In this document: one piece after another, positions 426 through 27,652 of the stretch | How positions within the stretch are numbered: the stretch's first letter is position 1 | Layout: each line of letters starts with the position of its first letter | Assembly (NCBI GenBank): GCA_021789995.1 | Contig: JAJYIQ010000002.1 | Location: forward strand, 124,001-188,000 | Length of the DNA stretch: 64,000 nucleotides | Origin: a bacterium | GTDB taxonomy: Bacteria; Patescibacteriota; Microgenomatia; UBA1406; GWC2-37-13 | Direction: 5' to 3' | Translations under genes and position numbers: made by a program | Notes under the pieces: model-generated | Seen by the model: only the letters and a program-made list of their open reading frames with translations | Database searches by the model: none | Told to the model about the DNA's origin: nothing

Positions 426-449
426 TTCTTCATTATATAATACATAATG

Positions 450-1391: not shown

Positions 1392-1419
1392 GGTAGTTTA
1401 TAATGTACCATTATTTTTG

Positions 1420-1425
1420 TATAAT
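1420..1425 (+). promoter_or_regulatory. -10 box TATAAT for a leaderless rfbF start
   Basis: A perfect TATAAT lies 7 bases before the ATG at 1433, so transcription would begin at or next to the start codon. No Shine-Dalgarno sequence precedes the ATG. The same geometry recurs at several other genes in this window. The -35 region is not obvious. Confidence 0.6.
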
Positions 1426-1432
1426 TGGAACT

Positions 1433-4094: not shown

Positions 4095-4096
4095 AT

Positions 4097-5829: not shown

Positions 5830-5831
5830 AC

Positions 5832-7064: not shown

Positions 7065-7930
7065 TAGACTTAATGATACTTGGAAAAAACGGACAACTTG
7101 GAGCAGAATTGGTATCTGCCTCTGAAAAATCTAGAGTGAGCTATGTAGCTTATAGTAAAGAAGAATTAAATGTAACAAATTATAATAAAATACATATAAC
7201 TATACTGAAAATAAAGCCTAGAGTTATAATAAATACTGCAGCATTTCACGTTGTTCCTGATTGTGAGATAAATCCGTTAAACGCGTTTGAAGTCAACTGT
7301 GTGTCTGTAAGCAATTTAGCAAATATATGTAAAAAATATCGGATACGTTTTGTAACATATAGCACTGACTATGTTTTTGATGGGAAAAAGCATAAACCAT
7401 ACATAGAAGTTGATTTGCCTAATCCTTTACAGATGTATGGGCTAAGTAAACTTTCAGGAGAGTATGCTGCTTTTAATAATTATCCTGCGGGTACTTTTAT
7501 CATTAGAACATGTGGAGTCTATGGTGGCAAAAAAGGGAGTAGAAGTAAAAAAGGAAATTTTGTACTCAATATTTTAAAGAAGGGAAAAGAAAAAGGCGAT
7601 TTGGAAGTAAACAATATGCAAATTGTTAACCCAACCTATGCAAAGGATTTAGCAAAGGCAACTTTGAGTTTGTTAGATCTAAAGCCTGATCCGGGAATTT
7701 ACCATATAGTAAGTGAAGGATATACTAGTTGGTATAATTTTGCAAAGAAAATATTTGAATATGCAAATATAAATAAGAAGGTAATACCTGTAAATAAAGA
7801 TACAGAAACTGAAAAAATACGAAGACCTGTATTTTCTGCCCTTTTAAACACAAAAGCTAAGAAATTAGGAATTAGGTTACCGTTTTGGGCGGATGCATTG
7901 AAAAATTATATAGCTGAAACAACCAAATAA
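7061..7930 (+). CDS. RmlD-like NDP-4-dehydrosugar reductase
   Basis: The 289-residue SDR has the RmlD pattern: MILGKNGQLGAEL at the N-terminus, VINTAAFHVVPDCE, STDYVFDG, and a catalytic Tyr/Lys in YGLSKLSGE. RmlD enzymes reduce the 4-keto group of dTDP-6-deoxy-L-lyxo-hexulose; in this operon the substrate may instead be a CDP-keto-sugar. No rmlA, rmlB or rmlC lies in the window. It closes the plus-strand operon, and its last 54 bases are shared, antisense, with the 3' end of the convergent membrane-protein gene. Confidence 0.85.
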   Translation: MIDLMILGKNGQLGAELVSASEKSRVSYVAYSKEELNVTNYNKIHITILKIKPRVIINTAAFHVVPDCEINPLNAFEVNCVSVSNLANICKKYRIRFVTYSTDYVFDGKKHKPYIEVDLPNPLQMYGLSKLSGEYAAFNNYPAGTFIIRTCGVYGGKKGSRSKKGNFVLNILKKGKEKGDLEVNNMQIVNPTYAKDLAKATLSLLDLKPDPGIYHIVSEGYTSWYNFAKKIFEYANINKKVIPVNKDTETEKIRRPVFSALLNTKAKKLGIRLPFWADALKNYIAETTK

Positions 7931-12890: not shown

Positions 12891-12908
12891 ATAAAAATAT
12901 TTCTAGAG

Positions 12909-13547
12909 CTATAGTTTTTTTACTAAAATTATAAATATATGTTGAGCGTATTCAGACAATATTTTTTGTTTTAATATCCCCGTGAAGCCGATTGCCCCAA
13001 TAAATGTATATAAACCAAAAAATCCTGATATAACCTCAACTTTCTTAATATTTGAAACATTTTCTACTAATTGCAGCAATTCATCCTTCGTATATTCCCT
13101 AAGATGAACGATATCACCACCGCTTGAATAATGATAACCCAAATTTCTTGGATAATGTATTTGTCCTTTTATGAGTATTCTAATTTTGTTGCTAAGTCGG
13201 TTCTTATTAGGAGTTCCAATAATAATTATTCCTCCTTTTTTAGTAATTCTAATAAGTTCTTTCAAGAACGAATGATCATTTTCAACATGTTCAATGACAT
13301 CAAATGCGGTGACAATATCAAACTCGTTCTCCTTTCCGAAACTATCAATTTCTATCTTCCTAAAAGGTATGTTGAATTCTTTTCTGGTCCTATTATCGAG
13401 ATCGCCACCGATTACATTTTTAGAATATTTTTTAAGTATAGAGGTATGAACCCCATCGCCACATCCGCAATCAAAAACTTTTAGATTCTTCTTTATATAT
13501 TTTTGGCAAAGTTTTGATATAAGTTTTGAATAAAGATCATTTGGCAT
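12909..13547 (-). CDS. Class I SAM-dependent methyltransferase
   Basis: The 212-residue protein has motif I (VFDCGCGDGVHT, about residues 24-35), an acidic end of strand 2 (GGDLDNRTR), DIVTAFDVIEHVEND and KKGGIIIIGTPN. These are the Methyltransf_11 pattern of UbiE/BioC-like enzymes. The acceptor is unknown; in this array a sugar or lipid-linked glycan is the natural guess. It lies 12 bases downstream of another methyltransferase gene, in one transcriptional unit. Confidence 0.8.
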   Translation of the reverse strand: MPNDLYSKLISKLCQKYIKKNLKVFDCGCGDGVHTSILKKYSKNVIGGDLDNRTRKEFNIPFRKIEIDSFGKENEFDIVTAFDVIEHVENDHSFLKELIRITKKGGIIIIGTPNKNRLSNKIRILIKGQIHYPRNLGYHYSSGGDIVHLREYTKDELLQLVENVSNIKKVEVISGFFGLYTFIGAIGFTGILKQKILSEYAQHIFIILVKKL

Positions 13548-13559
13548 TCAGTTTTCTGT

Positions 13560-14480
13560 CTAGGAATGTTTAATTACGTATGTATTAATTTCTGCTGCTC
13601 TTGGATAAAATAAGGAGAGTATAAGTCTGATCAACAAAGTTATGGGCACAATTATTATAAATAATATAAAATCAATAAATAAATTATTTTGTTTAGGCAT
13701 ATTATATAAACTAAATGACAAATCATGAAAATATGAAAGCGGATCACTGGAATAATTAATTATCCGTAAATGATTTTTTCTCAATAATTCTTTCAGACAT
13801 ATATAATTATAAAAAAATAAGTGTCTAGGTGTATCGAGATGGAACCATGAGCTTCTAGCAATATTTAGTCCAAGACTATCTCTGTTTGGAATTTCAATTA
13901 TTAAAACTCCGTTTTTATTTAATATTTTTCTTATAGACTTAAAAAAAATATTTGGATTATCCACGTGCTCTAATACGTGCCACATAACAATGATATCAAA
14001 GCGAATGTTGTTTTTAAACTTTGTACTATCAATTTTTTGATTATATACAGTTATATCAGGATAATTTTTCTTTATATACAAATAGGCGTCTGTGTTTACT
14101 TCTACTCCATATCTTTCAAAATTGGCTGGTAGTTGATTTAGAAATTCACCGTTGGCACAACCAATATCAAGTACGTTTTTACCAGTAGGTTTGAATCTAT
14201 TAATAATTGCCATTCGTCTCGCAAACCCCAAATTATTAAACCAAGATAGAACTAACTGTGCCAGGCCGTTGTTGGGAATAGTTTCGTAATAGTTTTTAGG
14301 ATAATATTTTCTATAGTATTGATAATTAGGTATTACATCGGTAAATAGGACGTGGCAATGATAACATTCATAAATGTCAAATTTTTCGTTGCCAAGTAAA
14401 TGGCGTCCATGAACATTTAACGAAGTAAACAATTTTCGATTATCTGAAGAACCGCAAATTCTGCACTGATTCTTGCTCAT
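13560..14480 (-). CDS. Zinc-ribbon class I methyltransferase
   Basis: A 306-residue protein opening with a four-cysteine zinc ribbon (CRICG near residue 6 and CYHCH near 39), then a SAM-binding domain with VLDIGCANGEFL, IVMWHVLEHVDNP and KNGVLIIEIPN. The C-terminus has a hydrophobic segment (about 268-292) that may anchor it to the membrane. Zinc-ribbon methyltransferases of this type are common in O-antigen clusters. The acceptor is unknown. It sits between the C-methyltransferase and a second methyltransferase, with 11- and 12-base gaps. Confidence 0.8.
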   Translation of the reverse strand: MSKNQCRICGSSDNRKLFTSLNVHGRHLLGNEKFDIYECYHCHVLFTDVIPNYQYYRKYYPKNYYETIPNNGLAQLVLSWFNNLGFARRMAIINRFKPTGKNVLDIGCANGEFLNQLPANFERYGVEVNTDAYLYIKKNYPDITVYNQKIDSTKFKNNIRFDIIVMWHVLEHVDNPNIFFKSIRKILNKNGVLIIEIPNRDSLGLNIARSSWFHLDTPRHLFFYNYICLKELLRKNHLRIINYSSDPLSYFHDLSFSLYNMPKQNNLFIDFILFIIIVPITLLIRLILSLFYPRAAEINTYVIKHS

Positions 14481-14491
14481 TATATAGCTTA

Positions 14492-15742
14492 TTATATGAT
14501 TTCAACTTTTGGTATAGGAATAATAATTTTTCCACCTTGTTTTCTGTAGTCGTTTAACTTATTCAATATTTCTTTTTTAAAGTTCCATGCGAGAAGAAGT
14601 AAATAATCGGGCCTCTGTTCATATATTGTCTCTTGAGGAAATACTTGCAAATGTGTGCCCGGTGAGTATAGCCCATGTTTGTAAGGGATATTGTCTGTTA
14701 AGTGATCAATAAGACTATTGTCGATACCACAGTAATTAAGAAGGATGTTGCCTTTTGCAGGGGCACCATATCCAACCACTGTTTTATTTTGTTTTTTTAG
14801 TTTAACGAGGAGCTGTTTTAGATCTTTTCTTACTATTTTTACTTTATCTGCAAATGATTTTAATGTCTTTATATTGTGTATATTCAGTCTTTTTTCCAAA
14901 GTCAATAATTGGAGTAGATTTTTAGATACCGATGTTTTTAACCCTTTTTTTTTAACATAGATAATTATGGAACCGCCATGTATCTCTGTTCTTTCAGCAT
15001 CAAAAAGCTCGAGATTAAACCGTTTAAATAAATTTACTAAAGGTAGTAAGGAAAAATAGCTAAGATGTTCATGGTAGATCGTATCAAACTCCATTCCCTG
15101 TATAAGATCGACTAAATAAGGAAATTCAGCTACAAAAATACCCTGATCTCCAAGTATTAAATTTAATCCTTCAAGTATGTTTTTAAGATTATCTATGTGC
15201 GCAAAAACATTAGTTCCTATTACGAGAGATGCGGTATGACGTTTTTCTTTAAGAATTTGTTTTGAAATTTTTTTATTAAAAAAAGTGTTCCAAGTTTCAA
15301 TACCTTGTTGGTTAGCAATCTTTGCCAAGTTTTTTGCAGGGTCAACGCCCAAAACATCTACGCCTATTTTTTTAAATAATTTTAGCAGGGTACCGTCATT
15401 GCTACCAATTTCAACCACGAAAGAACGAGAAGTTAAATGAAAACGAGAAGTTAGAGAGTGAACCAAATATTGGAAATGATCTTCCATTGTTTTTGAAAAA
15501 GAAGAAATATAAACATAATTTTTGTATAAAATTTCCGGATCAACAACCTCGCGGGTTTGCACCAATCCGCAGTTTGCGCAAAAACACACTGTTAATGGAA
15601 ATTTTGGTTCATGGTCACTCAATTGATATGAGGTAAGAAAATTGTTTACCAAGGGCATTTCACCAAAATGGAGGAAGTTTGTTAACTGTGATGTATTGCA
15701 TATGCGACATTTTTTAATTTTCTTAATTGTTGATTTAAGCAT
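14492..15742 (-). CDS. NDP-hexose C-methyltransferase
   Basis: This 416-residue enzyme has the three-part layout of TylC3/TcaB9-type sugar C-methyltransferases. The N-terminal zinc domain has CRIC (about 12-15) and CANCGLVQ. The SAM domain has VEIGSNDGTLL. The catalytic segment TIYHEHLSYFSL is followed by EIHGGSIIIYV, and the C-terminal domain has VVGYGAPAKGNILLNY. Such enzymes methylate a sugar carbon next to a keto group, giving branched sugars. It may use a CDP- or dTDP-4-keto-6-deoxysugar made by the plus-strand operon. It overlaps the GT4 gene upstream by 8 bases. Confidence 0.88.
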   Translation of the reverse strand: MLKSTIKKIKKCRICNTSQLTNFLHFGEMPLVNNFLTSYQLSDHEPKFPLTVCFCANCGLVQTREVVDPEILYKNYVYISSFSKTMEDHFQYLVHSLTSRFHLTSRSFVVEIGSNDGTLLKLFKKIGVDVLGVDPAKNLAKIANQQGIETWNTFFNKKISKQILKEKRHTASLVIGTNVFAHIDNLKNILEGLNLILGDQGIFVAEFPYLVDLIQGMEFDTIYHEHLSYFSLLPLVNLFKRFNLELFDAERTEIHGGSIIIYVKKKGLKTSVSKNLLQLLTLEKRLNIHNIKTLKSFADKVKIVRKDLKQLLVKLKKQNKTVVGYGAPAKGNILLNYCGIDNSLIDHLTDNIPYKHGLYSPGTHLQVFPQETIYEQRPDYLLLLAWNFKKEILNKLNDYRKQGGKIIIPIPKVEII

Positions 15743-16925
15743 GTTGCATTTTTCTTAAAATAAAAGAGGCCCTTTTATTCCAATCCCATTCTCTTGTTAC
15801 CAATTCTTTGGCCTCTTTTCTCATTGTAACATATTTTTTGTTATCTATCATTAACTCTAAAATTGCTTGAGCAAATTTATGATGATCCCCAATGGGAGAA
15901 ACACCTAAAAGCCCTTGGGGGTAGCAATATTTATAACCTTCTTGATTAAAAGCCACTACGGGTAAGCCACACGCCATTCCTTCAGCAGCAGCCATTCCCC
16001 CGGTTTCATAAATTGCAGGGTGAATAAAGATTTTTGAGGATTTCAATACTTTATATTTTTTGTGCTTATCCATAAATCCAAGCAAGCTGACATTTTTTGT
16101 TAAATTCATTTTCTTGATATAATGAATAATTTTTGCTTCTTCTGAACCATTACCAATCATGGCTAGTTTTGCATGAGGAAATGTCTTGATTACTTCGCTC
16201 CATGATTTTACGGCAAAAATCGGCCCTTTTTGTGAATGGAAACGTGCCATAAAAACAGCATCATATATTTGTTTTTTTGGCGTTGGCACACTATTGATAA
16301 AGTCCAAATCCACGCCTCCATAGATAGCAATGATATTTTCTTCAGGAAATCCATCCCGTATAAAGATTTTACGATCGATTTCATTACAGGCAATTACTAA
16401 GTTAGCCCATTTTCTAATCAATATATAAGCCAGTAATTGGGTTAACCAATAAAATATTCCTATTATTCTTCTTATGAGAGAGGAAGCGTACGGGTTTATG
16501 CGCTGCCATGGTTTTGGGGCAAAAAAATAAAATGCCGTTACCCATTTAACTTTTGGGTTTCTCCATTTTATAAGCAATGCAGGTATTATATCCGGCCAAA
16601 AATCAGATGCAGAATAAATATAATCAACCTTATCGAAAATATCTGAATTTTTATAGATAGATTGTATGCCTTTCAATAATCTTCGAACAGAATGGTAAAA
16701 AATACCAAATATTGAGTAAAGGTTAGAACTGTCATTATTATCAGACTCAATATATGTAATATTTTTAATTTTTTCTTGTTTTAGTTTTTTTATTGTCCCG
16801 TGAGAACCCAAAAAAAACAACTGGAAAGAATCATAAAATCTTTTTAATAATTCAAAATATATTGTGCTACCCCCACTCATACCTGTACCGCAATCAACAT
16901 TGGCAATAAAAACCACTTTTTCCAT
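15735..16925 (-). CDS. Glycosyltransferase family 4
   Basis: The 396-residue protein has the GT-B fold. The C-terminal half contains YDAVFMARFHSQKGP, a nucleotide-sugar binding region, and the EX7E-type segment ETGGMAAAEGMACGLPVVAF. The N-terminus has the GGSTIYFELLKRF phosphate-loop region. It transfers an NDP-sugar to a growing glycan at the cytoplasmic side. It is a diverged paralogue of the GT4 at 25572-26759, sharing YDAV(F/Y)MA and GLPVVA, but is encoded in AT-rich sequence. Confidence 0.85.
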   Translation of the reverse strand: MEKVVFIANVDCGTGMSGGSTIYFELLKRFYDSFQLFFLGSHGTIKKLKQEKIKNITYIESDNNDSSNLYSIFGIFYHSVRRLLKGIQSIYKNSDIFDKVDYIYSASDFWPDIIPALLIKWRNPKVKWVTAFYFFAPKPWQRINPYASSLIRRIIGIFYWLTQLLAYILIRKWANLVIACNEIDRKIFIRDGFPEENIIAIYGGVDLDFINSVPTPKKQIYDAVFMARFHSQKGPIFAVKSWSEVIKTFPHAKLAMIGNGSEEAKIIHYIKKMNLTKNVSLLGFMDKHKKYKVLKSSKIFIHPAIYETGGMAAAEGMACGLPVVAFNQEGYKYCYPQGLLGVSPIGDHHKFAQAILELMIDNKKYVTMRKEAKELVTREWDWNKRASFILRKMQHA

Positions 16926-16928
16926 ATT

Positions 16929-17837
16929 TTATTTTTCTATATCAAAATATTTTTTTCGAGATGATTTGGTTTTAATAAGTTGCCAAAAGCTGAAAAATAA
17001 TCCATGATATTTTATTGGTATAATGCTTCTAAGATAAGAGATAGATTTATCAAGAGCAGATCTATTAAAATCTTCCTTTACCGCATTTGGATTCCGGATA
17101 AGCATTTTATAAAAATACTGATCAGGTAAAACAATTTTTTTTACATCACTCTTTTTTCGAACAAGGAAGCAATTAACTAAACGGCTGCCGGAATTAAAAA
17201 ATACTCCCGTATAATCTTTTTTCTGATTATAATAGTAAAATCTATCCTTATTTCCTCTTACTTCTACGATATATGATTCAATGATTTCAAATCCATTACT
17301 TGTATAAAAATCGTAAAAAAGTGTCGGTGAAAATTGATAAAATCCGTGATTTAAAAAATTTTGAGCAGGAATAAACTGCAAAACAAATCCACCGCGTTTT
17401 GTAATCCTGACAATATTTTCCATGACTGACCGAATGTCAAAAATGTGTTCCAATGTTCCGCTATCTATGACGAGATTAAAAAAATTATGGAATTTTGAAT
17501 CGATTGGATATTGTAGGTCATGAATAATACGCGGTTTATCAAAAGGAAATTTATCGATATCGTAATAATTATTTTTATTTATCCCAATAAATTCGAAAAA
17601 TGTTTTCGCATGAATGTATTTTTTTGCCTCTTTATTTATCTTTGAAACATCACCACTTGTGGAATACAAAATTACCCTTGGCGATTTTAAAAATATGTTC
17701 TCATTTTTTGCCCATTTTTTAATATCATCTTCATACGCATAAATATCCTGATTTCCAAATGTCATAACCGGTCCCTTAAACTTATATTTTTTACTTTTTT
17801 TAAGGATAAATTTTAAATTAGCTGAAGTTAAGCCCAT
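16929..17837 (-). CDS. Methyltransferase-like protein
   Basis: In this 302-residue protein the middle reads LVIDSGTLEHIFDIRSVMEN then KRGGFVLQFIPAQNF, matching motifs near the active site of Methyltransf_11 proteins. The usual glycine-rich motif I is weak (only LYSTSGDVSKI is in place), so SAM binding is uncertain. The C-terminus (after about 240) is basic and has no recognisable domain. It lies between a GT2 and a GT4 gene with gaps of 7 and 3 bases, so it is in the same operon. Confidence 0.65.
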   Translation of the reverse strand: MGLTSANLKFILKKSKKYKFKGPVMTFGNQDIYAYEDDIKKWAKNENIFLKSPRVILYSTSGDVSKINKEAKKYIHAKTFFEFIGINKNNYYDIDKFPFDKPRIIHDLQYPIDSKFHNFFNLVIDSGTLEHIFDIRSVMENIVRITKRGGFVLQFIPAQNFLNHGFYQFSPTLFYDFYTSNGFEIIESYIVEVRGNKDRFYYYNQKKDYTGVFFNSGSRLVNCFLVRKKSDVKKIVLPDQYFYKMLIRNPNAVKEDFNRSALDKSISYLRSIIPIKYHGLFFSFWQLIKTKSSRKKYFDIEK

Positions 17838-17844
17838 AATTACA

Positions 17845-18885
17845 TTATTTACAACTTATATTGTATTTAAAATATATTTTTTTTATAATTCGACTGTTTA
17901 TCTTGTCTTTATAAAAGTCTGTTATCCTTGGTAAAATTGATTTTGGAACCAATATACAACCTAAAGAATAAAAGTAAAAATTCAGATTAAATATGTTTAG
18001 CCAATTATACTTTAACAAATACCAAATTTCTCGGAAAAGATAACTTAATTTTGAATAACTTCTAATTTGGATTAATCCTAAGTAATTAGTTGCGATAATA
18101 TTCTTTATAAAATAATTTTTAAATTCTTGAAATTGTTTTTCAGTAAGTATTTCATTAAGCATGTTGATCCATCTTATTATAGGTGATATTCTATAGCTTT
18201 CTCCCCCTTTTTGTCTAATAATGTTATTGCCTATTCTGATTGCAACTTGATATCTTTTTAAAAAAACTACCGGGTATTTTTTAAAAATATGGATAAAAGG
18301 ATACCCGTGAGCAATCCAGTCATTATTTCTAGAAAAAAATATTTTTTTCAGGAATTTTATTCGGAAGGCCAGCCCCGATAGCTGGCCTAGTATTTCATTG
18401 TGTATCACAATGCTTGCTTTTTTTAAATCATGCATATAAACTATTTCATCCTTTTTCTTATTTAAAATACAAGTTAATCTGACGGGGATATGAATATCGT
18501 CTTTAAACCAATAATATGGTCTTGTTACTGCTCCTATTTTCTTGTCTTTTAGAAATGCTCTGCATGTCTCCAATAGAGCGTTTTTAGATATAATATCATC
18601 AGCACCTACAAAATAAAGAATGTCACCATTACAGTTTTTATATCCTTCAATTAAATTTCTGGCATAACCAATATTTGTATGATTTTTATAATATTTAATA
18701 CGCGAATCAGAAAACGATTCAATTATTGATTTTGTGTTGTCTCGGGAATTATTATCCTGAATTATAATTTCAAAATTCTCGTATGATTGATTTATAATGC
18801 TATTTATTGTTTGTCTGATGGTATTGCCCATATTATAAGTTGGAATTACTACGCTGAATTTAAATTGTTTTTCCTTCTTACTCAT
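17845..18885 (-). CDS. Glycosyltransferase family 2
   Basis: A 346-residue GT-A enzyme: VVIPTYNMGNTIRQTI at the N-terminus, IIQDNNSRDNT, and the metal-binding VGADDI. It then shares AVTRPYYWF, GQLSGLAFR and NFYFYSLGCILVPKSIL with the GT2 at 24631-25590, of which it is a clear paralogue despite the contrasting base composition. The C-terminal third is basic and hydrophobic and may associate with the membrane. It overlaps the methyltransferase upstream by 4 bases. Confidence 0.85.
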   Translation of the reverse strand: MSKKEKQFKFSVVIPTYNMGNTIRQTINSIINQSYENFEIIIQDNNSRDNTKSIIESFSDSRIKYYKNHTNIGYARNLIEGYKNCNGDILYFVGADDIISKNALLETCRAFLKDKKIGAVTRPYYWFKDDIHIPVRLTCILNKKKDEIVYMHDLKKASIVIHNEILGQLSGLAFRIKFLKKIFFSRNNDWIAHGYPFIHIFKKYPVVFLKRYQVAIRIGNNIIRQKGGESYRISPIIRWINMLNEILTEKQFQEFKNYFIKNIIATNYLGLIQIRSYSKLSYLFREIWYLLKYNWLNIFNLNFYFYSLGCILVPKSILPRITDFYKDKINSRIIKKIYFKYNISCK

Positions 18886-19580
18886 ATTTTTCTAAAAACT
18901 AGTTCCCAATTATAATATCCTAAGATTGGTAATTTTATTTTCCTTACTATTTTCATGATAATATGTTCATATAATTTCCTATTTTTTAGAGCAATTCTTT
19001 TTATAAAAAAATCACATATGGGAAACCACTGAAGTCTTTTTCTCTGTTCTAATAACTTGAATTTATTTTTACCAAATAGGTTTAGGAGTTGCTTATCAGA
19101 AGAATATTCTCTAATATGAGTTGGATCCAAAACCCATTTATTTTTATTTCGATAAAAATACCATCCATACCATTTTTTAAAAACGGTAGATATATAAACG
19201 ATTCCTCCATTTCTAACCTTTTTTTTGATTTGTTTTATCATTCGTTTATCATCAACGTGTTCTATGACTTGCGTTGAAATGAAAAAATCAATACTATTAT
19301 TTTTAATAGATATTAATTTTTCTGCATTATCAATAACTGCTACAATATTAGGGTTGATCTCTTTAACCATTTTTATTCGATTTTTCGATAAATCTATTGC
19401 GAATATTTTTTTATTGTTTAAATAATTAAGTTTATTTAGAGCATGTAATAAGGAACCATCTCCACATCCGCAATCCAGGATGTTATTATAATTGGAACAA
19501 TCTAAATATTTTCTAAGGAGTGAGGAAATATTATCATTGTAATACTGAGGTGCAATTATTGAATATTCTTCTATGTCCAT
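18882..19580 (-). CDS. Class I SAM-dependent methyltransferase
   Basis: The 232-residue protein has motif I ILDCGCGDGSLLHAL (about 35-49), AIDLSKNRIKM, DFFISTQVIEHVDD and RNGGIVYISTV. It resembles the methyltransferase at 12909-13547 in size and motifs. The acceptor is not known. It ends on an ATGA-type overlap with the following GT2 and is separated by 49 bases from the GT2 upstream, the longest gap in this part of the array. Confidence 0.8.
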   Translation of the reverse strand: MDIEEYSIIAPQYYNDNISSLLRKYLDCSNYNNILDCGCGDGSLLHALNKLNYLNNKKIFAIDLSKNRIKMVKEINPNIVAVIDNAEKLISIKNNSIDFFISTQVIEHVDDKRMIKQIKKKVRNGGIVYISTVFKKWYGWYFYRNKNKWVLDPTHIREYSSDKQLLNLFGKNKFKLLEQRKRLQWFPICDFFIKRIALKNRKLYEHIIMKIVRKIKLPILGYYNWELVFRKI

Positions 19581-19629
19581 ATTTTTAAATAGTTACATTA
19601 GCTGTTGTCAAATCTTAGCACTTTTTTGT

Positions 19630-20478
19630 TTAAAAATACTCTTTATAATCAATAATCTTTTGACATATATATTTTATTCCCACGAGCTTTTTTAAATAAT
19701 ACATTCCTAAAGTTAAAACAGGATATTTTATAAGTTTTTTCCATTTTTTATCTTCTACAAATACCCTAAAATATCTATACCAAAAACCAAACTGCTTTTT
19801 AATGTCTGGATCGTTTTTTCCCCATTTCTTAATATATTTGTTAAAACTTTTGGCATAATAGCTTTTCTTTTGAAGATATTTATGCAAATTAAATTCCGAC
19901 TCATTATGGTAAAGCGGCGACTGGATAAGGTCGGTTTTGCCGCGTTGGCGGATTTTCTTGTCCAAATCCCAGTCTTCGGGGCCGGACATGGTTTCATCGA
20001 AGCCACCGACCGACAAGAAATCTTTCAGTCTGATGAAGCGCACGGCATCAATCACTGTTCCGTCATAAAAGCTTCGTTCAAATCGCCTGACTTTGGACCA
20101 GTAACTATCGCCCATTATTATTTCCGGAATATAGAGACCGACGATTTTTTCATCTTTAGACATTGTTTCAACCGCTTCGGCAATGATGCCGGGACTCAAA
20201 ATCATATCGGCATCTAAATAGAGGAAATATTGACCTGTGCTTTTTTTGGCGCCGAAATTCCGTTGCGCCGACCGTTCCGGACTACAATCATAAATTTTTT
20301 CGGTATATTTTTTGGCGAATATCTTGGTTTTATCAATTGAATGATTGTCGACGACGATAATTTCGATTTTATCGACTGGATAAGTCTGTTTTTTTATCGA
20401 CTGTAGACAATCTGTAATATGTTTTTCTTCGTTTTTGGTGGTGATGACAACCGAGACAACAGGTAACTTTTTTTTCAT
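19630..20478 (-). CDS. Glycosyltransferase family 2 (composition break inside)
   Basis: This 282-residue GT-A enzyme has VSVVITTKNEEKHI, IIVVDNHSIDKT, the YLDADM metal site and GGFDETMSGPEDWDLDKKI. It is a paralogue of the GT2 at 26746-27609 along its whole length, including KWG-x-DDPDIKKQFG. The gene is a compositional mosaic: the codons for residues 1 to about 189 (right of about 19910) are GC-richer, while those for the C-terminal third are AT-rich like everything further left. The reading frame is intact through the change. Start codon overlaps the upstream stop by ATGA. Confidence 0.88.
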   Translation of the reverse strand: MKKKLPVVSVVITTKNEEKHITDCLQSIKKQTYPVDKIEIIVVDNHSIDKTKIFAKKYTEKIYDCSPERSAQRNFGAKKSTGQYFLYLDADMILSPGIIAEAVETMSKDEKIVGLYIPEIIMGDSYWSKVRRFERSFYDGTVIDAVRFIRLKDFLSVGGFDETMSGPEDWDLDKKIRQRGKTDLIQSPLYHNESEFNLHKYLQKKSYYAKSFNKYIKKWGKNDPDIKKQFGFWYRYFRVFVEDKKWKKLIKYPVLTLGMYYLKKLVGIKYICQKIIDYKEYF

Positions 20479-21203
20479 GACGGTTTATAATTCTTTAATG
20501 AATCGGCTAAAGTGGAATATGTTTTTGTCGGTTTTAATGCTTTAGACATAATAAGGAAAATACCGGTTGAACGGATAGCGGACATAAGGATTATAAAAAT
20601 AAAGGTAATAGGCAATTGATTGATTAGGATACCGATAAATAAGGGATAACTAATGGTAAAACAGAATTTGGTCACGGAGTTGTGGTGGACGTACAATAAG
20701 TTATATAAAAGCAAATCGCCGGTACCGGCATGGTGATTGGATGCGCGCATTTTTTTTTCGATTTCCGGATAGCGCTCAAAATCAAGATGAAAAGTTTTGT
20801 CGAACTCGTATTGCAATACCGTTTGGAAAAAGTAAACGGAATAAAAGAAAATGGCCAGGGGTAGATTTTTAATTGCATAAAATATACTACCAAGAACAAT
20901 TAGCATTAGAATGCGGTCGAGGTTATAATCAACTAGCCGGCCAAAGGGTTTGGTACCGGCCGGTAGATTATATAATTGGGCCAATGCGCCGTCTACCCAG
21001 TCCAAAATGGCAAGACTCATATACAACAAAAGGCCAATGACATTATATAAATATTTACCCCGGCTGAAGAAATAAATGCTGACCGGGGCAGCGACAAGAA
21101 AACGGAAAACCGTTACCGGGAGCGGTTTTATTTTTAATTTATAAAAAATCCGGGCGATCCCCATAGCCGAATTTTCGCCCAGATTTTCTAAGTAATTAAT
21201 CAT
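20475..21203 (-). CDS. CDP-alcohol phosphatidyltransferase family protein
   Basis: The 242-residue membrane enzyme has the CDP-alcohol phosphotransferase signature: DWVDGALAQ (about 68-76), then G-R-L-V-D-Y-N-L-D after eleven residues. The family pattern is D-x2-DG-x2-AR-x8-G-x3-D-x3-D, so Arg is replaced by Gln and the middle spacer is longer. About five hydrophobic helices are visible. It would join an alcohol to a CDP-activated lipid or polyol. Placement in a glycan array, between a methyltransferase and a GT2 with ATGA overlaps on both sides, suggests a role in anchoring or modifying the glycan. Confidence 0.78.
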   Translation of the reverse strand: MINYLENLGENSAMGIARIFYKLKIKPLPVTVFRFLVAAPVSIYFFSRGKYLYNVIGLLLYMSLAILDWVDGALAQLYNLPAGTKPFGRLVDYNLDRILMLIVLGSIFYAIKNLPLAIFFYSVYFFQTVLQYEFDKTFHLDFERYPEIEKKMRASNHHAGTGDLLLYNLLYVHHNSVTKFCFTISYPLFIGILINQLPITFIFIILMSAIRSTGIFLIMSKALKPTKTYSTLADSLKNYKPS

Positions 21204-21937
21204 TTTTTACAAATAACGTAAAACAGCCGGACAAAACGCGTCGGGCCAAAAATTAATTTCAGTATTTTTTCGCTGGCGAACAAAACATCGGCTGCCAACC
21301 GATTATCACTCCAATCATAAAACGTATCCAATAACCGCGAACAGCCGACAATCCGGCATTCGGAAAAACCGGCATCTCTGACTATTTTCACTAAATCATT
21401 ATAATGGATTTCATTACCTAGCCATCCTTTATTGTTAATTAATTTAGGTACGGCAACCATTGAATCGATATTCGGATAAGTGAATATCAAAATGCCGCCG
21501 TCATTCATCGAGCAGCGGATATTTTTCAAAATTGTTGTTAATTGTGGGTAATACGACAGGACGCGGTAGGCCGTGACCAAATCGAACTTATCCCAATTTT
21601 TCGGCAGAGGTTTGAGGATGTCGTGAACTTTAAGGAGCTTGACGCGTTTGTTGTTTTTATATTTGTTCCGGCAGTAATCGATCATCGTTCGCGAAATATC
21701 AGTGGCATAATGTGTGACCTGGTGGCGGATTATTTCGTCGCTCACCCGCCCGGTGCCGATACCGATATCCAGCGTTTTTATCGCTTTCTTTTTATTATTA
21801 AATGCCTGTTTAACCAAATCCAATTCCCAGTTACTCAAACGTCTTTTGGCAACCGACCGCCAGGAGCGGCCGTAAGTCTCACCCCGCTTATTCCAAAAGT
21901 CAGCGACGATTGAGGAATGACCATTTGAATCCGTCAT
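21200..21937 (-). CDS. Class I SAM-dependent methyltransferase
   Basis: The 245-residue protein has TLDIGIGTGRVSDEII (motif I), YATDISRTMIDYCR (motif II), DLVTAYRVLSYYPQ and MNDGGILIFTYPN. The pattern is that of small-molecule methyltransferases of the UbiE type. The substrate is unknown. Its first 38 bases overlap the end of the GT2 gene upstream, and its stop overlaps the start of the CDP-alcohol phosphotransferase. Confidence 0.8.
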   Translation of the reverse strand: MTDSNGHSSIVADFWNKRGETYGRSWRSVAKRRLSNWELDLVKQAFNNKKKAIKTLDIGIGTGRVSDEIIRHQVTHYATDISRTMIDYCRNKYKNNKRVKLLKVHDILKPLPKNWDKFDLVTAYRVLSYYPQLTTILKNIRCSMNDGGILIFTYPNIDSMVAVPKLINNKGWLGNEIHYNDLVKIVRDAGFSECRIVGCSRLLDTFYDWSDNRLAADVLFASEKILKLIFGPTRFVRLFYVICKK

Positions 21938-22790
21938 ACATTCCTTTATAGAAATTGATAAGTGCGGTACTATCGCGATAGCGGATTGCCTGATAAGTAT
22001 AAATCAAAAACCAGGCAGGATAAAGTGCGACGAATAACGGAAAATACGGTGAATTCTTTCGCATAAAAATAATTTTATTGCGGGCAGTAAAATAACTGCG
22101 TGACAGCCAGCGCCGCTTGCCGGTTTCCTTATCCATTAACGGAAATTTATGATAACAGACGGCTTTTGGCGTATACATTATTGTATAACCGGCCTGTCTG
22201 ACGCGATAAGAAAAATCAGCATCTTCGTATGACGTGATATATGTGTCATCGTATAATCCGATTTTATCAATCACTTCTTTTTTGACCAAAAAATTAGCCG
22301 GGGCGATATCCACTTCTTCAACTTTGTCATACTGTCCCTGGTCCAGGCCTTCCCGAGAAAAGTTTTGGCCGGTTATCATGTTGATACCGGTACCGGCGGA
22401 CCAGACTGTTTTTTTATTTTCCCAATAATAAATTTTCGGGGTGACGACGCCGATCGCCGAATCCGATTCAGCCAGCTTTACCATCTGTGAAAGCATGTTG
22501 CGGTCGAGAATGTTGTCGTGATCGACCAGCCAGACAAAATCGCCATGGGCGTATTTTATCCCGCGGTTGGCGCCGCCGGTGACGCCTAAATTTTTGGCGT
22601 TACAGATCAGTTTTGCCCCGGGAAATTTCCTCTTTATCAGTTTTGCCGTCCCGTCGGTCGAACCGTTGTCGACGACGATGATTTCCAGATTGCGGTATGT
22701 TTGATTGATTAACGACTGCAGGCATTCAGCAAGGATCAGTTTCAAATTATAAGTCGGAACGATGACGGAAACAAGGGGGGATTTTGCCAT
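21900..22790 (-). CDS. Glycosyltransferase family 2, rhamnosyltransferase-like
   Basis: A 296-residue GT-A enzyme with VSVIVPTYNLKLILAECL, IIVVDNGSTDGTAKLI, VTGGANRGIKYA and the metal site VDHDNIL. The segment SYEDADFSYRVRQAGY matches the ED-x-D acceptor-side motif of rhamnosyltransferase-like GT2 proteins. The C-terminus carries a short hydrophobic segment (FPLFVALYPAWFLIYT). It starts three bases after the aminotransferase stop. Confidence 0.85.
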   Translation of the reverse strand: MAKSPLVSVIVPTYNLKLILAECLQSLINQTYRNLEIIVVDNGSTDGTAKLIKRKFPGAKLICNAKNLGVTGGANRGIKYAHGDFVWLVDHDNILDRNMLSQMVKLAESDSAIGVVTPKIYYWENKKTVWSAGTGINMITGQNFSREGLDQGQYDKVEEVDIAPANFLVKKEVIDKIGLYDDTYITSYEDADFSYRVRQAGYTIMYTPKAVCYHKFPLMDKETGKRRWLSRSYFTARNKIIFMRKNSPYFPLFVALYPAWFLIYTYQAIRYRDSTALINFYKGMYDGFKWSFLNRR

Positions 22791-22793
22791 ATA

Positions 22794-23897
22794 TCAAAAC
22801 GATGCCAAGATATCGGCGATTTTTTTAACTGCTTCCTTATCTACCCAATAGCCGATAGGGATGCATAATTTTTCGTCATTAAATTTCCTGACTCCCGGGA
22901 GCGGTCCACGGTTATACTTTCTGAAAAGCGGGTAGATATCGTTTCTGATATGGGCTTCGCCGCTGTCAATGCCTGCTTCTTTAAGCTTTTTCCACAGTTT
23001 CAATCGGTTATCTTTATTGCCGCATAAGACGGTAAACATCCACCAGGAATTGACGGCGCCGGGATAAACGGAGACCGGTTTTAATGATTTGCTTTGTTCC
23101 AATGCTTTCAAATATACTGCTGCCTGTTGCTGCCTCTGCTGCAAAAGCTGGGTAAGATGCGGCAATTGTCCCAAACCGATGGACGCCGTGACATCGTTCA
23201 TATGGAATTTATAACCGGCTTCCTTAATCGGGTAATCCCAGTATGTTTCTTTGACAATCCGTCTGTCCCGATCGATGCCGTACCAGCGCAGTGTTTTCGC
23301 CCGATGCCAGTCGCGGCGGGTTTTTGTCGTTAGTATACCGCCGTCAACCGTATTGATGATTTTGATTGCCTGCAAACTGATGATGACATAATCGGAATGG
23401 GAGCCGATCGGTTTATCATTATAGCAGGCTCCTAACGCTTGTGCGGCGTCTTCAATTACTTTCACCCGATGTGTTTTGGCGATACGATTTATTTTTTTTA
23501 GATCAACCGGATTACCACCCCAGTGAACTACCATGATTGCTCTGGTTTTTTTGGTAATTTTTCTTTCAATGTCGTCCGGATCAATACTGCCATTGGCCGG
23601 ATCGATATCCGCCCAGACAATATCCGCGCCTTCGTTGATGATCGGTTCGTTGGTAGCGGTACAGGTCATGGGGGTGGTGATCACTTCCCCGCCGCGAACA
23701 TTAGCCAGTCGTAGAGCAAGGTGAATGGCGGCAGTGGCATTGTTGACGGTCAGAACATTATCCGTCCCTAACCGGGGAGACAAGGCTTTTTCGAACTCTT
23801 TGACTTTCGGTCCTTCGCCGATCCATGATGTCTTAAGGACGTTTGTCGCATTGGCAATCGCTTCTTTCGACATAAACGGCAGAAATAACGGAATCAT
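22794..23897 (-). CDS. DegT/DnrJ/EryC1-type sugar aminotransferase
   Basis: This 367-residue PLP enzyme most likely transfers an amino group to a keto-sugar nucleotide. It has NNATAAIHLALRLANV, VIEDAAQALGA with the PLP-contacting Asp, and the catalytic Lys in SLQAIKIINTVDGGIL, unlike the His-containing RfbH at 5832. The ATG at 23897 was chosen since it forms an ATGA overlap with the methyltransferase stop; an upstream ATG at 23972 would add 25 residues unlike the family. No matching NDP-keto-sugar dehydratase lies beside it, so the substrate may come from elsewhere. Confidence 0.85.
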   Translation of the reverse strand: MIPLFLPFMSKEAIANATNVLKTSWIGEGPKVKEFEKALSPRLGTDNVLTVNNATAAIHLALRLANVRGGEVITTPMTCTATNEPIINEGADIVWADIDPANGSIDPDDIERKITKKTRAIMVVHWGGNPVDLKKINRIAKTHRVKVIEDAAQALGACYNDKPIGSHSDYVIISLQAIKIINTVDGGILTTKTRRDWHRAKTLRWYGIDRDRRIVKETYWDYPIKEAGYKFHMNDVTASIGLGQLPHLTQLLQQRQQQAAVYLKALEQSKSLKPVSVYPGAVNSWWMFTVLCGNKDNRLKLWKKLKEAGIDSGEAHIRNDIYPLFRKYNRGPLPGVRKFNDEKLCIPIGYWVDKEAVKKIADILASF

Positions 23898-24637
23898 GGT
23901 GAATGAAGTATACCGGATTGCTTGGTAAAAATAAATACCTGGGTCGATCCGGGGATCCCCAGCAATTTGCAAATATTATCCAGGTTTTCCAAAAGTTTGC
24001 GCCCTTTCCTATCTCCCAGTATTTTGATAAACGAGTCGTAAATTTTGTTGATGCAATAAAAATAGTTGGATTGGCCGGTAGACAGAAGCTTGAAAGGTTT
24101 CATCAATGCTATCAACTGCCTGCCCGGGATAAAATCCCGGTCCCGCCGGGCAATTAGGCGGGAAAGCCAGAATAAAGACGGTTTTTCCATATTAAGGATA
24201 ATGACAATGCCTTGTGGCTTCAGGATTCTTTTTATTTCGGAAAGCAGCAACGGTTGTGATGAAGAATCAAGCATATGTAGGACATTAATCAGGCTGATGG
24301 CGTCATAACTATTGGCGGGAATTTTTTTCAAGCGGGTATTTTTTTCGTCGTCAATTACCATCTCAATATTCATCTTCAGCCGTTTTGCCTGTTTATATAC
24401 ATAAGAACGGCCGTTTTTATCGATATCCAAACCAACGACTTTTCTTATCCCCCATTGCTTGTAAAGCGGCATTGCCCGCCCCCGTCCGATTCCGATATCC
24501 AACAGGGTTTTATTTTTAAAATTGAAATTCAAGCGTGCAACCGTATCGTTGACCAACATCATATAATTCCTTATCCATAAATATAAATAGCCGTTCCTGG
24601 CATTGACATCAAAATCGAAATCCACATTGTTTACCAT
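23894..24637 (-). CDS. Class I SAM-dependent methyltransferase
   Basis: In this 247-residue protein, LLDIGIGRGRAMPLYKQWG is motif I, followed by VVGLDIDKNGRSY, YDAISLINVLHML and KPQGIVIILNME. The N-terminal 40 residues are aromatic-rich. The acceptor is unknown; neighbours suggest a glycan or lipid-linked sugar. It overlaps the GT2 upstream by 7 bases and the aminotransferase by 4, so translation is coupled in both directions. Confidence 0.78.
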   Translation of the reverse strand: MVNNVDFDFDVNARNGYLYLWIRNYMMLVNDTVARLNFNFKNKTLLDIGIGRGRAMPLYKQWGIRKVVGLDIDKNGRSYVYKQAKRLKMNIEMVIDDEKNTRLKKIPANSYDAISLINVLHMLDSSSQPLLLSEIKRILKPQGIVIILNMEKPSLFWLSRLIARRDRDFIPGRQLIALMKPFKLLSTGQSNYFYCINKIYDSFIKILGDRKGRKLLENLDNICKLLGIPGSTQVFIFTKQSGILHSP

Positions 24638-25590
24638 ATTTTTTTCAGCTTATCGACAAGAAACGCTAATAACCGGCGGGGTATGATAAGAGTTCCTAAG
24701 CTGTAAAACCAGAATTTAGGATTAATGAGGTTGGCCGGATGAAGTCTGATTAAAATAATTATTTCCCGCAATAAATTTTCATAAGTGCTGTAATTTTTTA
24801 TCTGCACCAGCCCGACGAAATGGGTGGCGATCTGGTCAATTCCCCACTGTCTGACCGGGGCGAATTTTTTTTCCGGGTAAACGGTATTAAACATTTTTAC
24901 CCAACTAATGGTTGGAGAAACGTCATACACGCGGGGATTGGAACGGGTCTGGCTGGAAACTACCCGGACAGCGACAGTGTAATCTTTGAGAAACATGATT
25001 TTGTGTTTTTTGGTAATGGCGGCAAAGGGATAAATGTGGCTGGGGAAAATTTCTTCATGGAAACCGGTGTTTAAATATTTTCTCCGGTAGGCCAGACCGG
25101 AAAGCTGGCCCAGGGATTCGAAAATTTTTTGCGTTTCCTTTTTACCGTCGAGGACTGAAATCTTCCGGTCGTGTTTTGCGTCGAAAGACAGCACTCGCCT
25201 GACCGGCATTTTGTAATTGTTATCGAACCAATAGTAGGGACGGGTGACGGCGCCGATTGTTTCATCGGCGAACGCTTTGACCGTTCTTTCCAATGCGCCT
25301 GGTAATAAGATATCATCCTGTCCCATCAGAAACAATATTTCTCCGCCGGCTTTTTTTGTTAAATGTTGCAGATTTCTACCATAGCCGAGATTTTTTTTGT
25401 TTTGATATATGCAAATCCGTTGATCACGAAAAGCGCTTATAATTTTTACGGTGTCGTCGGTTGAATGGTCATCGCCAATTAACATCCGCCAATCCTTAAA
25501 ATTCTGCTTAAGAATACTCTCAATAGTTTCACTGATCCATAGCGAGCCGTTATAAGTCGGCATGCAAATTGTTACTTTTGGTTTTTGCAT
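24631..25590 (-). CDS. Glycosyltransferase family 2
   Basis: A 319-residue GT-A enzyme: VTICMPTYNGSLWISETI, MLIGDDHSTDDT, metal site MGQDDILL, then AVTRPYYWF and GQLSGLAYRRKYL. It pairs with the AT-rich paralogue at 17845-18885; the shared stretches extend into the C-terminus (FWFYSLGTLIIPRRLL). The gene starts 18 bases inside the end of the GT4 gene upstream, next to a palindromic repeat that forms that gene's tail. Confidence 0.85.
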   Translation of the reverse strand: MQKPKVTICMPTYNGSLWISETIESILKQNFKDWRMLIGDDHSTDDTVKIISAFRDQRICIYQNKKNLGYGRNLQHLTKKAGGEILFLMGQDDILLPGALERTVKAFADETIGAVTRPYYWFDNNYKMPVRRVLSFDAKHDRKISVLDGKKETQKIFESLGQLSGLAYRRKYLNTGFHEEIFPSHIYPFAAITKKHKIMFLKDYTVAVRVVSSQTRSNPRVYDVSPTISWVKMFNTVYPEKKFAPVRQWGIDQIATHFVGLVQIKNYSTYENLLREIIILIRLHPANLINPKFWFYSLGTLIIPRRLLAFLVDKLKKIW

Positions 25591-26759
25591 AATAACGTTG
25601 TCATGCTGGAGCCCCGATTTAATCGGGACGATAGCATCTTAAAGATTCTATCAGCCCCGCCACGGCGGGGCTTCCAGAATGACATCAAAATTCTACTTTC
25701 GTTTTTTGCTGTTTTATCCCAACTGAAACGACGGGCATTTTCTGCCGCCTCTTTTGATAATTGATGACAATAATCATGGTCGTTTAACAGCCGGATAATC
25801 GCATCGGCAAATCGTTTCGTATCCCCCATTGGGATTTTTATCATGCCTTTCGGAAAAATCTCCGCAAAAACCGGCAAGTCCCAGGCGACGACCGGTAATC
25901 CCATGGTTTGTGCTTCTAAGGGGGCGAGGCCGAATCCTTCCTCATGACTTGGACACAGGAATATCTTGGACGTTTTGATTGTGTCTGCCGCTTTTTTATC
26001 GGGCAAAAAGCCCAACAGTTCGATTTTATTCATTTTCTTGAGTATATTTTTATTCCCTTTGCCGATGACCGCCAATTTGGCTGACGGGATTTTCCGGTTG
26101 ACGATATTCCATATCGTTTCCAGGTCTAAAATACCTTTATGTGGTTTGAGCTGAGCCATATATACGGCATCGTACTTGATTTTGCCGTTTGCCGGAAAAG
26201 TTGATAAATAGTCATTATCAATTCCCAGATGGTTAATGTTAATCCTGTCGGGAGCGAAACCCAGCGCCGACAATTCACGTTTGAGCAGGCGATTATCGAC
26301 GATGATCATATCTGCCGCTCGCTTGATGAAAAAAAAGCTGAATCGTTGCAAAAGATGAGGAAAAAACCGTTTCGCGGGAATGACGTGAAAGATGTGCTGC
26401 ACCCAGCGGATTGGTCGATATTTCATTTTCAGGAAGGCGATCGGCAGGACGTCGGGGAAATAATCGGAGGTTCCAAGTATGGTACTGTATTTATTTATTC
26501 TTAAATCGAGAAAAAAAGCACGAAACATGCGTTTTAAGTAAGTGATCATCACGTGGCCGAATCTATTTTCCGTGGAGGTTAGGTGATATTCAGCTTTAAT
26601 ACCGTATTCCGTCATCAATCTTTGTCCTAATCGGGAAGTGACTATTTGCCAACGAATATTCGGCAGTCTTTTGGCGATTTCCAGGAAAACGGTGTCGCCG
26701 CCGTTTTTACCGTAAGAATAAGCGTTCATGAAAGCGATGACTTTATTATTCGTTTTCAT
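25572..26759 (-). CDS. Glycosyltransferase family 4 with repeat-derived C-terminus
   Basis: The 395-residue GT-B enzyme has YDAVYMAQLKPHKGILDLE, KLAVIGKGN, and EEGFGLAPLEAQTMGLPVVAWD holding the two family glutamates. The N-terminus has KNGGDTVFLEIAKRL. The last 37 residues look foreign: residues about 359-387 are encoded by an 86-base palindromic element, giving a basic tail with WKPRRGGADRIFK. The enzyme core seems complete before that point, so the insertion probably replaced only the original end. It overlaps the GT2 upstream by 14 bases. Confidence 0.85.
   Translation of the reverse strand: MKTNNKVIAFMNAYSYGKNGGDTVFLEIAKRLPNIRWQIVTSRLGQRLMTEYGIKAEYHLTSTENRFGHVMITYLKRMFRAFFLDLRINKYSTILGTSDYFPDVLPIAFLKMKYRPIRWVQHIFHVIPAKRFFPHLLQRFSFFFIKRAADMIIVDNRLLKRELSALGFAPDRININHLGIDNDYLSTFPANGKIKYDAVYMAQLKPHKGILDLETIWNIVNRKIPSAKLAVIGKGNKNILKKMNKIELLGFLPDKKAADTIKTSKIFLCPSHEEGFGLAPLEAQTMGLPVVAWDLPVFAEIFPKGMIKIPMGDTKRFADAIIRLLNDHDYCHQLSKEAAENARRFSWDKTAKNESRILMSFWKPRRGGADRIFKMLSSRLNRGSSMTTLLCKNQK
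25599..25684. repeat. 86-bp palindromic element in GT4 coding sequence
   Basis: The ends are inverted: TGTCATGCTGGAGCCCC on the left and GGGGCTTCCAGAATGACA on the right. Two inner hairpins follow (CCCCGATT-AATCGGG and GCCCCGCCACGGCGGGGC). The TGTCAT...ATGACA termini recur in the element inside miaA. It is translated in frame as part of the GT4 C-terminus. Confidence 0.85.
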
Positions 26760-27609
26760 TTTTGAAAATAAATTGGCGAAGATGGTTCAGGCCGACTATC
26801 GAACGTATAAAATATAGGCCGATGGTTAGCTGCAAAGCGCTGATAAAATACCGCCATTTCCCGTTTTCGACATAAACAGTGAAATAGCGATAAACAAGTC
26901 CGAATTGTTTCTTTATATCGGGATCGTCGGTCCCCCATTTGGCGATATATTCCTTGAAAGATTGGGAATAATTTGATTTTTTGGAAAAATAAGTAGCCAT
27001 TTTCAGATTTTCTTCATGATGGTACAGTTTGTTTTTGGTGATCGAAATCCGATCGGTTACCCGTTTTATTCTTTTAGTAAAATCCCAATCATCCGGCCCG
27101 AAACGGATATTTTTATCGTCAAACCCGCCGACTTTTTGGTACAGTTTTTTGGTAACGATTCGGACGGCGTCGATGCAAGTCGCGTTGTAGAAACTGCGCT
27201 CGAAATTGCGGATTTTGCCGAAAAATCCTTTGCCTTTTATCACTTCGGGAATATACAAAGCGTCGATTTTTTTACTATCAATAAGATTGAAAGCTTCTTC
27301 CAGCAGTTTTTTGTCGAAAGTCATATCGGCATCGGGGAAAAAAATTATCTCCCCATGGCTCTTGGCGACGCCGAAATTCAGCTGGGCGCCGCGGGGATTT
27401 TTTATCCGTTTTCCGCGGGGAAGAAAATAAGCATTATCGGCCGTTTTTTTGGCGGCGGCAGCAGTTTTGTCAGTCGAATGGTTATCGACGACGATAATTT
27501 CCATTTCATTTGCCGGTAATGTTTGCTGACGGAGACTTTTTAAGCAGTGATTGATATTTTTTTGTTCATTAAAGGTGGCAATAATAACTGTAATTTTCGG
27601 CCTTTTCAT
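26746..27609 (-). CDS. Glycosyltransferase family 2
   Basis: The 287-residue GT-A protein has ITVIIATFNEQKNINHCL, IIVVDNHSTDKT, metal site FPDADM, and GGFDDKNIRFGPDDWDF. It is a full-length paralogue of the GT2 at 19630-20478 (both share RRFERSFY or RNFERSFY, DAVR and DPDIKKQFG). The ATG at 27609 begins the conserved region; the ATG at 27660 would add 17 residues and overlap the divergent gene. It is the first gene of the long minus-strand array, 43 bases from the divergent TMTC-like gene. Confidence 0.87.
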   Translation of the reverse strand: MKRPKITVIIATFNEQKNINHCLKSLRQQTLPANEMEIIVVDNHSTDKTAAAAKKTADNAYFLPRGKRIKNPRGAQLNFGVAKSHGEIIFFPDADMTFDKKLLEEAFNLIDSKKIDALYIPEVIKGKGFFGKIRNFERSFYNATCIDAVRIVTKKLYQKVGGFDDKNIRFGPDDWDFTKRIKRVTDRISITKNKLYHHEENLKMATYFSKKSNYSQSFKEYIAKWGTDDPDIKKQFGLVYRYFTVYVENGKWRYFISALQLTIGLYFIRSIVGLNHLRQFIFKNENE

Positions 27610-27652
27610 TTGAAAGAAAGAAATAGATTTGTTATTTTGAAGTATATCACAT

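Follow-up and report, generated by a model that had tools for sequence, protein, structure and literature searches.

Exchange of surface-polysaccharide loci

CPR bacteria are believed to depend on other cells as their habitat and to make contact with them through their surface. The pneumococcal cps locus is one surface-polysaccharide locus that is exchanged by recombination in its conserved flanks. For the capsule and O-antigen loci of Enterobacteriales, exchange of the locus between bacterial lineages is likewise established, according to the available part of the source (PMC7305143). The locus described here resembles the enterobacterial cps and O-antigen loci, as that part presents them, in its conserved borders and in a variable interior of glycosyltransferase and sugar-nucleotide genes that is shared with distant lineages. 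It differs from them in lying in a CPR genome, in having a border gene that is itself a glycosyltransferase, and in a joint that we propose to lie inside this gene, at the boundary between its core and its helices.

The genomic islands of Patescibacteria are a second point of comparison. Horizontal exchange occurs mostly within the group, and recombination genes and competence have been reported, in the accessible portion of that work (PMC12455944). The cassette considered here is like those islands in being shared horizontally within the group; the same portion lists islands and transferred genes and describes neither an anchored glycan locus nor a joint within a border gene. Term searches of the open-licence literature, a weak guide to novelty, found no paper on the anchor GT2 gene or on an in-gene joint in a border glycosyltransferase of CPR bacteria. 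Exchange of a surface-polysaccharide locus is of a known kind; new here are the anchor GT2 and the proposed joint at a domain boundary. The seam makes visible how CPR bacteria swap surface-glycan genes across class borders, and a conserved anchor GT2 can be searched for in other genomes in order to map such glycan loci.

A composition break inside a border glycosyltransferase

We use "window" for the whole 64-kb stretch analysed, C4:124001-188000; contig C4 measures 222.6 kb, in an assembly of 898 kb in four contigs. The reference throughout is G001, a genome of the same genus whose copy of the GT2 gene lies on JAJYLO010000010.1. The features of the gene are as follows.

19630..20478, minus strand: GT2 glycosyltransferase P0001, 282 aa (open frame, PF00535, structure model)
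19906..20478, minus strand: putatively native part with the alpha/beta catalytic core (codons 1-191); GC 0.42; the G001 copy is its nearest relative, 79% aa
19886..19914: proposed joint (GC change point at 19896-19914 and a 20-nt block identical to G001)
19630..19885, minus strand: AT-rich C-terminal third, GC 0.24, with six helices predicted over residues 198-279
26746..27660, minus strand: paralogous GT2, 45% identical to 19630-20478, with no composition break

The product scores 86.4 bits against PF00535 (gathering cut-off 23.3), and its structure model has a pLDDT of 91.7. Together with the best PDB matches (E 3e-13 to 1e-11), these place it in the GT-A-fold GT2 family, with WrtF, PcManGT, TarP and RmlT as fold matches; it differs from these enzymes in that the query-length TM-score is just 0.54-0.66 in the listed matches. 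In NCBIfam, it reaches the cut-off of no family. The protein aligns collinearly with its family across its full length.

An earlier note, made from the DNA alone, had reported an uninterrupted reading frame that becomes AT-rich in its left third, from about 19910. The frame is indeed open from 20478 to 19630, and the best single GC split falls at 19896 whether the GT2 gene, 17.5-22.5 kb, 15-25 kb or the entire 64-kb window is considered, so that the break within the gene is the strongest in the window. Positions 19908 and 19914 nearly equal 19896 window-wide; the change point is thus 19896-19914. Within the gene, the split separates 0.23 from 0.42 GC with a log-likelihood gain of 15.7, the highest of 41 genes tested (runner-up 9.2), and none of 1000 codon shuffles matched it. 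At the GC edge sits a 20-nt run, 19886-19905, the longest exact match between the window and G001 in the gene. The AT-rich part proposed earlier therefore stands, with its edge refined to 19886-19914 and its extent to 31-34% of the gene.

Could this third merely be rich in Lys, Tyr, Phe and Asn codons, with no joint at all? It is slightly lower in GC in most copies of the gene, the difference between C part and N part running from -0.10 to +0.03 in 44 other copies, which include some near-identical or imperfectly read ones. In the window copy, however, the difference is -0.18. GC3 also falls, from 0.47 in the N part to 0.24 in the C part, so amino-acid content alone fails to explain the drop. 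Furthermore, the paralogue at 26746-27660 in the same genome changes by just -0.03, and low GC extends over 23 kb. A search for equal drops in GC and GC3 among copies from 43%-GC genomes did not find them in most of these. The codon explanation is hardly credible; a strong GC drop in the C-terminal third is no trait of the GT2 family. The exception to the 44-copy range is the copy of G001 (-0.12), in which GC falls from about 0.40-0.41 to 0.27-0.28 near residue 180, with a low-GC stretch of about 1.5 kb adjoining. The earlier note had held that a relative with the same profile would count against a joint, and G001, going from 0.40 to 0.28, partly fits that description. Because the G001 copy has a drop of its own, the AT-rich third may predate the split of the genus.

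In the predicted structure, the final strand of the core comprises residues 189-191, and from residue 198 onward there are only helices. The GC joint is thus predicted to coincide with the end of the alpha/beta core and the start of the C-terminal helices. This boundary appears to tolerate change, since 8 of 22 aligned copies carry an insertion just ahead of it.

The AT-rich island

The earlier note had the AT-rich DNA continuing to position 1, and it extends 3.26 kb beyond. A two-change-point fit on a 20-base grid gives an island of about 23 kb, C4:120741-143900 (window -3259 to 19900), with 31.3% GC against 43.7% outside. Its main features are listed below; G465 is a genome of the Moraniibacteriota.

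1..19900, extending a further 3.26 kb leftward to C4:120741: AT-rich island, 0.31 GC (two-change-point fit)
1403..7930, plus strand: sugar-nucleotide genes, namely a nucleotidyltransferase, two NAD epimerase/dehydratases, transketolase halves, a DegT aminotransferase and an RmlD-like protein (Pfam)
7877..12890, minus strand: two large proteins of 866 and 824 aa (7877-10351, 10290-12890), no Pfam family; the 866-aa one 55% to G465
12909..13547, minus strand: methyltransferase (Pfam), not found in the G465 cassette
13560..14480, minus strand: methyltransferase (Pfam), 56% to G465
14492..15742, minus strand: C-methyltransferase (PF08421/PF08484), 68% to G465
15735..16925, minus strand: GT4 glycosyltransferase (Pfam), 64% to G465
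16929..17837, minus strand: protein of 302 aa without Pfam family, 67% to G465
17845..18885, minus strand: GT2 glycosyltransferase (Pfam), 60% to G465 and 41% to its GC-rich counterpart 24631-25590
18882..19580, minus strand: methyltransferase (Pfam), 64% to G465

By its gene content, the locus would make a surface glycan. The neighbouring minus-strand genes 7877-10351 and 10290-12890 share a C-terminal part of about 240 residues that is 43% identical.

Site-specific insertion of the integrase type was considered and rejected, the island edges having neither a tRNA nor a repeat above chance. There is no tRNA gene in window 1-30000, and a tRNA-Gly gene lies some 16 kb beyond the left island edge; the longest direct repeat between the edges is 11 nt, against a random mean of 11.7. 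A Pfam scan that covered most island genes within the window, other than 450-1391 and the part of the island before position 1, found no integrase or transposase family, three of the scanned proteins having no family. A defence system in the cassette was also rejected, as five proteins had no PADLOC match.

Conserved borders and a variable interior

To the right of the joint, the genome continues with genes that G001 shares.

20475..27244, minus strand: native right flank, eight genes collinear with G001, 57-96% aa
27653..33862: conserved module beside the anchor, comprising a TPR membrane protein, a radical SAM/B12 protein, two GT2s and a putative flippase

In order, and up to the end of the G001 contig, amino-acid identities to G001 are 74% for the anchor GT2, 81% for a CDP-alcohol transferase, 85% for a methyltransferase, 84% for a GT2, 91% for an aminotransferase, 57% for a methyltransferase, 86% for a GT2, 82% for a GT4 and 96% for the paralogous GT2. 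Left of the anchor, the same G001 contig carries different genes, which match scattered window genes at just 22-45%. This is the shared right flank and different left flank that the earlier note had suggested looking for in relatives.

Two genes within this flank stand out. The methyltransferase 23894-24637 (minus strand) is a second mosaic inside a gene: its 57% aa identity to G001 lies between neighbours at 91 and 86%, and nucleotide identity is 0.53-0.55 across about 23951-24400 as against 0.89-0.90 just outside. The paralogous GT2 26746-27244 (minus strand), with 96% aa and 0.88 same-codon identity to G001 among neighbours at 57-91% aa and 0.61-0.73, looks as if it had been recently exchanged between both species or were strongly constrained.

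The anchor GT2 also lies at the edge of conserved genes in G022, G015, G016, G011 and G013. Of 23 loci from a genome scan, 21 have a relative of the radical-SAM gene 29277-30842 within 7 kb on the upstream side of the GT2, and 20 have one of 30835-31845 in that interval. These loci span Moraniibacteriota, Falkowbacteria, Peregrinibacteria, Omnitrophota, Elusimicrobia, Brevinematales and others; they were counted by hand and drawn from the best GT2 matches, and thus are not a random sample. The putative flippase of the module is a 421-aa membrane protein with no Pfam match.

On the left, native DNA resumes with a flippase gene, L113:14317-15630, 84% identical to G001. Next to it, G001 matches the RfbC-like gene just outside the island at 84% and the leftmost island gene at 66%; therefore, the left end of the island is not wholly foreign to the genus. 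This flippase was found in three of eight genomes searched (G001, G084 and G015), and on one contig it is separated from the GT2 by 21 kb in G015 and 25 kb in G084, with other genes between. The interiors of G001 (contig C45), G015, G022 and G011 match window genes at only 22-47%; the exceptions are in the interior of G084, which has relatives of the sugar genes 1403, 2203 and 5808 at 56-74% identity. Since the same two borders enclose different interiors, the island occupies a slot whose content varies while its ends are fixed. The locus thus combines conserved flanks on both sides, an interior that differs in content, and sharing of that interior with distant lineages above the genome background.

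These borders also bear on the possibility of an assembly chimera, in which contigs from two populations were fused where the GT2 is conserved. The genome is after all an assembly of four contigs. However, native DNA flanks the island on both sides within the 222.6-kb contig, so a chimera would require false joins at two places. The open frame and the full-length collinearity of the protein with its family also speak against it. Moreover, distant copies share just 65-68% of nucleotides here, too little for an assembler's word match, although the donor may differ from these copies. We consider a chimera very unlikely.

The cassette in another CPR class

Seven island genes, from 18882 to 10290, recur in G465 in the same order and orientation, with 55-68% aa identity, about 8 kb beyond that genome's own anchor GT2 copy. 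The gyrA product is 96% identical to that of G001, 67-80% to those of four family members and 53% to that of another Moraniibacteriota genome, G466; gyrA was not found in G465. With 55-68% against 53%, these peripheral cassette genes are as close as gyrA, whose product is among the most conserved proteins, or closer across the class border. The C-methyltransferase 14492-15742 provides a further comparison: 13 of 57 relatives, the genome itself included, pass the cut-off, and the best full-length matches among them are 47-48% identical (51% over one partial match), below the 68% of G465. The foreign origin that had been claimed for the glycan locus is thus supported by island composition and by these collinear genes. 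For the 302-aa protein 16929-17837 (minus strand), without Pfam or PADLOC match, 1 of 15 genomes searched has a match (G465, 67%).

Searches for a donor among 379 genomes of the phylum gave at best 65% for the C-terminal third of the GT2 (query residues 192-282) and 45% for the neighbouring glycosyltransferase 17845-18885; the 60% match of the latter came from loci of the wider genome contig scan.

Position of the proposed joint

Does the joint lie inside the GT2 gene or at its 3' end? We put the probability that it lies inside at about 70%. Relatedness to G001 changes along the gene: amino-acid identity is 0.79 over codons 1-191 and 0.63 thereafter, the lowest C-minus-N identity of 16 pairs in the same identity band. 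Among 33 close pairs, this one has the largest ratio of C to N distance, 1.94, ahead of a second value of 1.54 and a median of 1.08. In sliding windows over 53 rows, G001 is the nearest copy through codons 106-180 (0.83-0.93) and then takes ranks 2, 4, 12, 17, 11 and 8; at the DNA level, it comes first of 55 copies over codons 1-190 and eleventh of 56 over codons 199-275. From codon 199 onward, several distant copies are nearer than G001, and the C-terminal third of the window GT2 is no nearer to G001 than to other phyla. In a break-point test of the window and G001, 22 of the 51 third sequences gave p<0.05, whereas each of eight control pairs reached this level with 2-8 of about 51; these p values are uncorrected and the third sequences not independent, and the break points spread across residues 165-247.

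One pair, L134/L056, showed a break near residue 92 in all 51 tests and was dropped as a control. The GT2 copy at L056:1293-2082, from a Paceibacter assembly, is apparently frameshifted near that residue, because its match of 790 nt is not a multiple of three. L056 was excluded from the distance-ratio comparison; the 51 third sequences do include it, as one of the two with p<0.001.

In the competing account, the left flank was exchanged by a crossover at the gene's 3' end, roughly 19630-19720, and the AT-rich third is older in the genus, through an earlier joint or drift. In its favour, the C-terminal third of the G001 copy is likewise low in GC (0.28), and among all copies the best match of that third is the window's GT2 (0.63 aa). 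Furthermore, blastn aligns the two copies through the joint to 19721, the best nucleotide-identity change point of the pair being 19720. Same-codon identity is 0.66 over codons 191-240, against 0.54 by chance, an excess resembling that of the N part, and it stays above chance to about codon 240. Although the free tree of the C-terminal third (89 columns) separates the two copies, an AU test does not reject a clade of window and G001 (p-AU 0.62; the held tree is 6.6 log units better). Tree discordance was therefore rejected as proof of the joint, as 89 columns are too short and the AU test allows that clade. Against a crossover at the 3' end stand the sharp GC edge at 19896, which is the edge of the entire island, the several distant copies that surpass G001 from codon 199, and the extreme C/N ratio. 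We judge this account unlikely.

The joint inside the gene is thus the preferred reading. The recombination joint claimed by the earlier note is supported, though not proven, by the GC break falling where the special closeness to G001 apparently ends; what tempers it are the GC drop in the G001 copy and the C-third tree, which allows a clade of window and G001.

A model for the exchange

We propose that, in this CPR genome, the GT2 gene 19630-20478 forms the right border of a variable surface-glycan locus, and that the resident cassette gave way to a foreign, AT-rich one of about 23 kb, bounded by the conserved flippase/epimerase end on the left and the GT2 on the right. The incoming DNA would have carried an anchor GT2 of its own along with the glycan cassette, and would have recombined with the resident locus. 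The right crossover would have occurred within the GT2, at about codon 188-198, its coding sequence being the last shared stretch, and the left one near the RfbC-like gene. The outcome would be a hybrid GT2, with the native catalytic core and a helical C-terminal third imported with the cassette. We infer that homology-driven recombination made the joint; the hybrid presumably works, and its C-terminal helices may serve in acceptor or membrane contact. Homologous recombination at the 65-68% DNA identity of the distant copies would be hard; the true donor is presumably closer than these.

Two histories fit the window and G001 together: independent imports into the same gene, or an older C-terminal third of the genus followed by a later exchange at the gene end. 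It is tempting to extend the first of these and to regard the GT2, as border gene of a conserved module in CPR and other phyla, as a reusable splice point, at which cassettes recombine into codons 180-225, keeping the core and swapping the helical half for one that suits the new cassette; we hold this to be possible but doubtful. The window and G001 would then be independent swaps, and the loci L034 (split at residue 225) and L047 would be two more. If the seam does recur at the same domain boundary, there would be a natural series of domain-swapped glycosyltransferases, and such swaps, if true, could tell which half of the GT2 sets acceptor choice.

Composition was also compared across 21 GT2 loci, picked for flank length from the fetched copies. 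GC is at least 0.03 lower downstream of the gene in 11 of them and 0.03 higher in none. The best GC split lies inside the GT2 in 3 of 21 (the window, L034 and L047), and about 2 were estimated from the gene's share of the stretch. A composition step as a general rule at the GT2 was rejected on these numbers, which are suggestive only. At L034:6027-6830 (Moraniibacteriota) and L047:10001-10891 (Elusimicrobia), the best GC split of the surrounding ±4 kb falls inside the 3' part of the GT2, with LLR values of 53.7 and 29.6, respectively.
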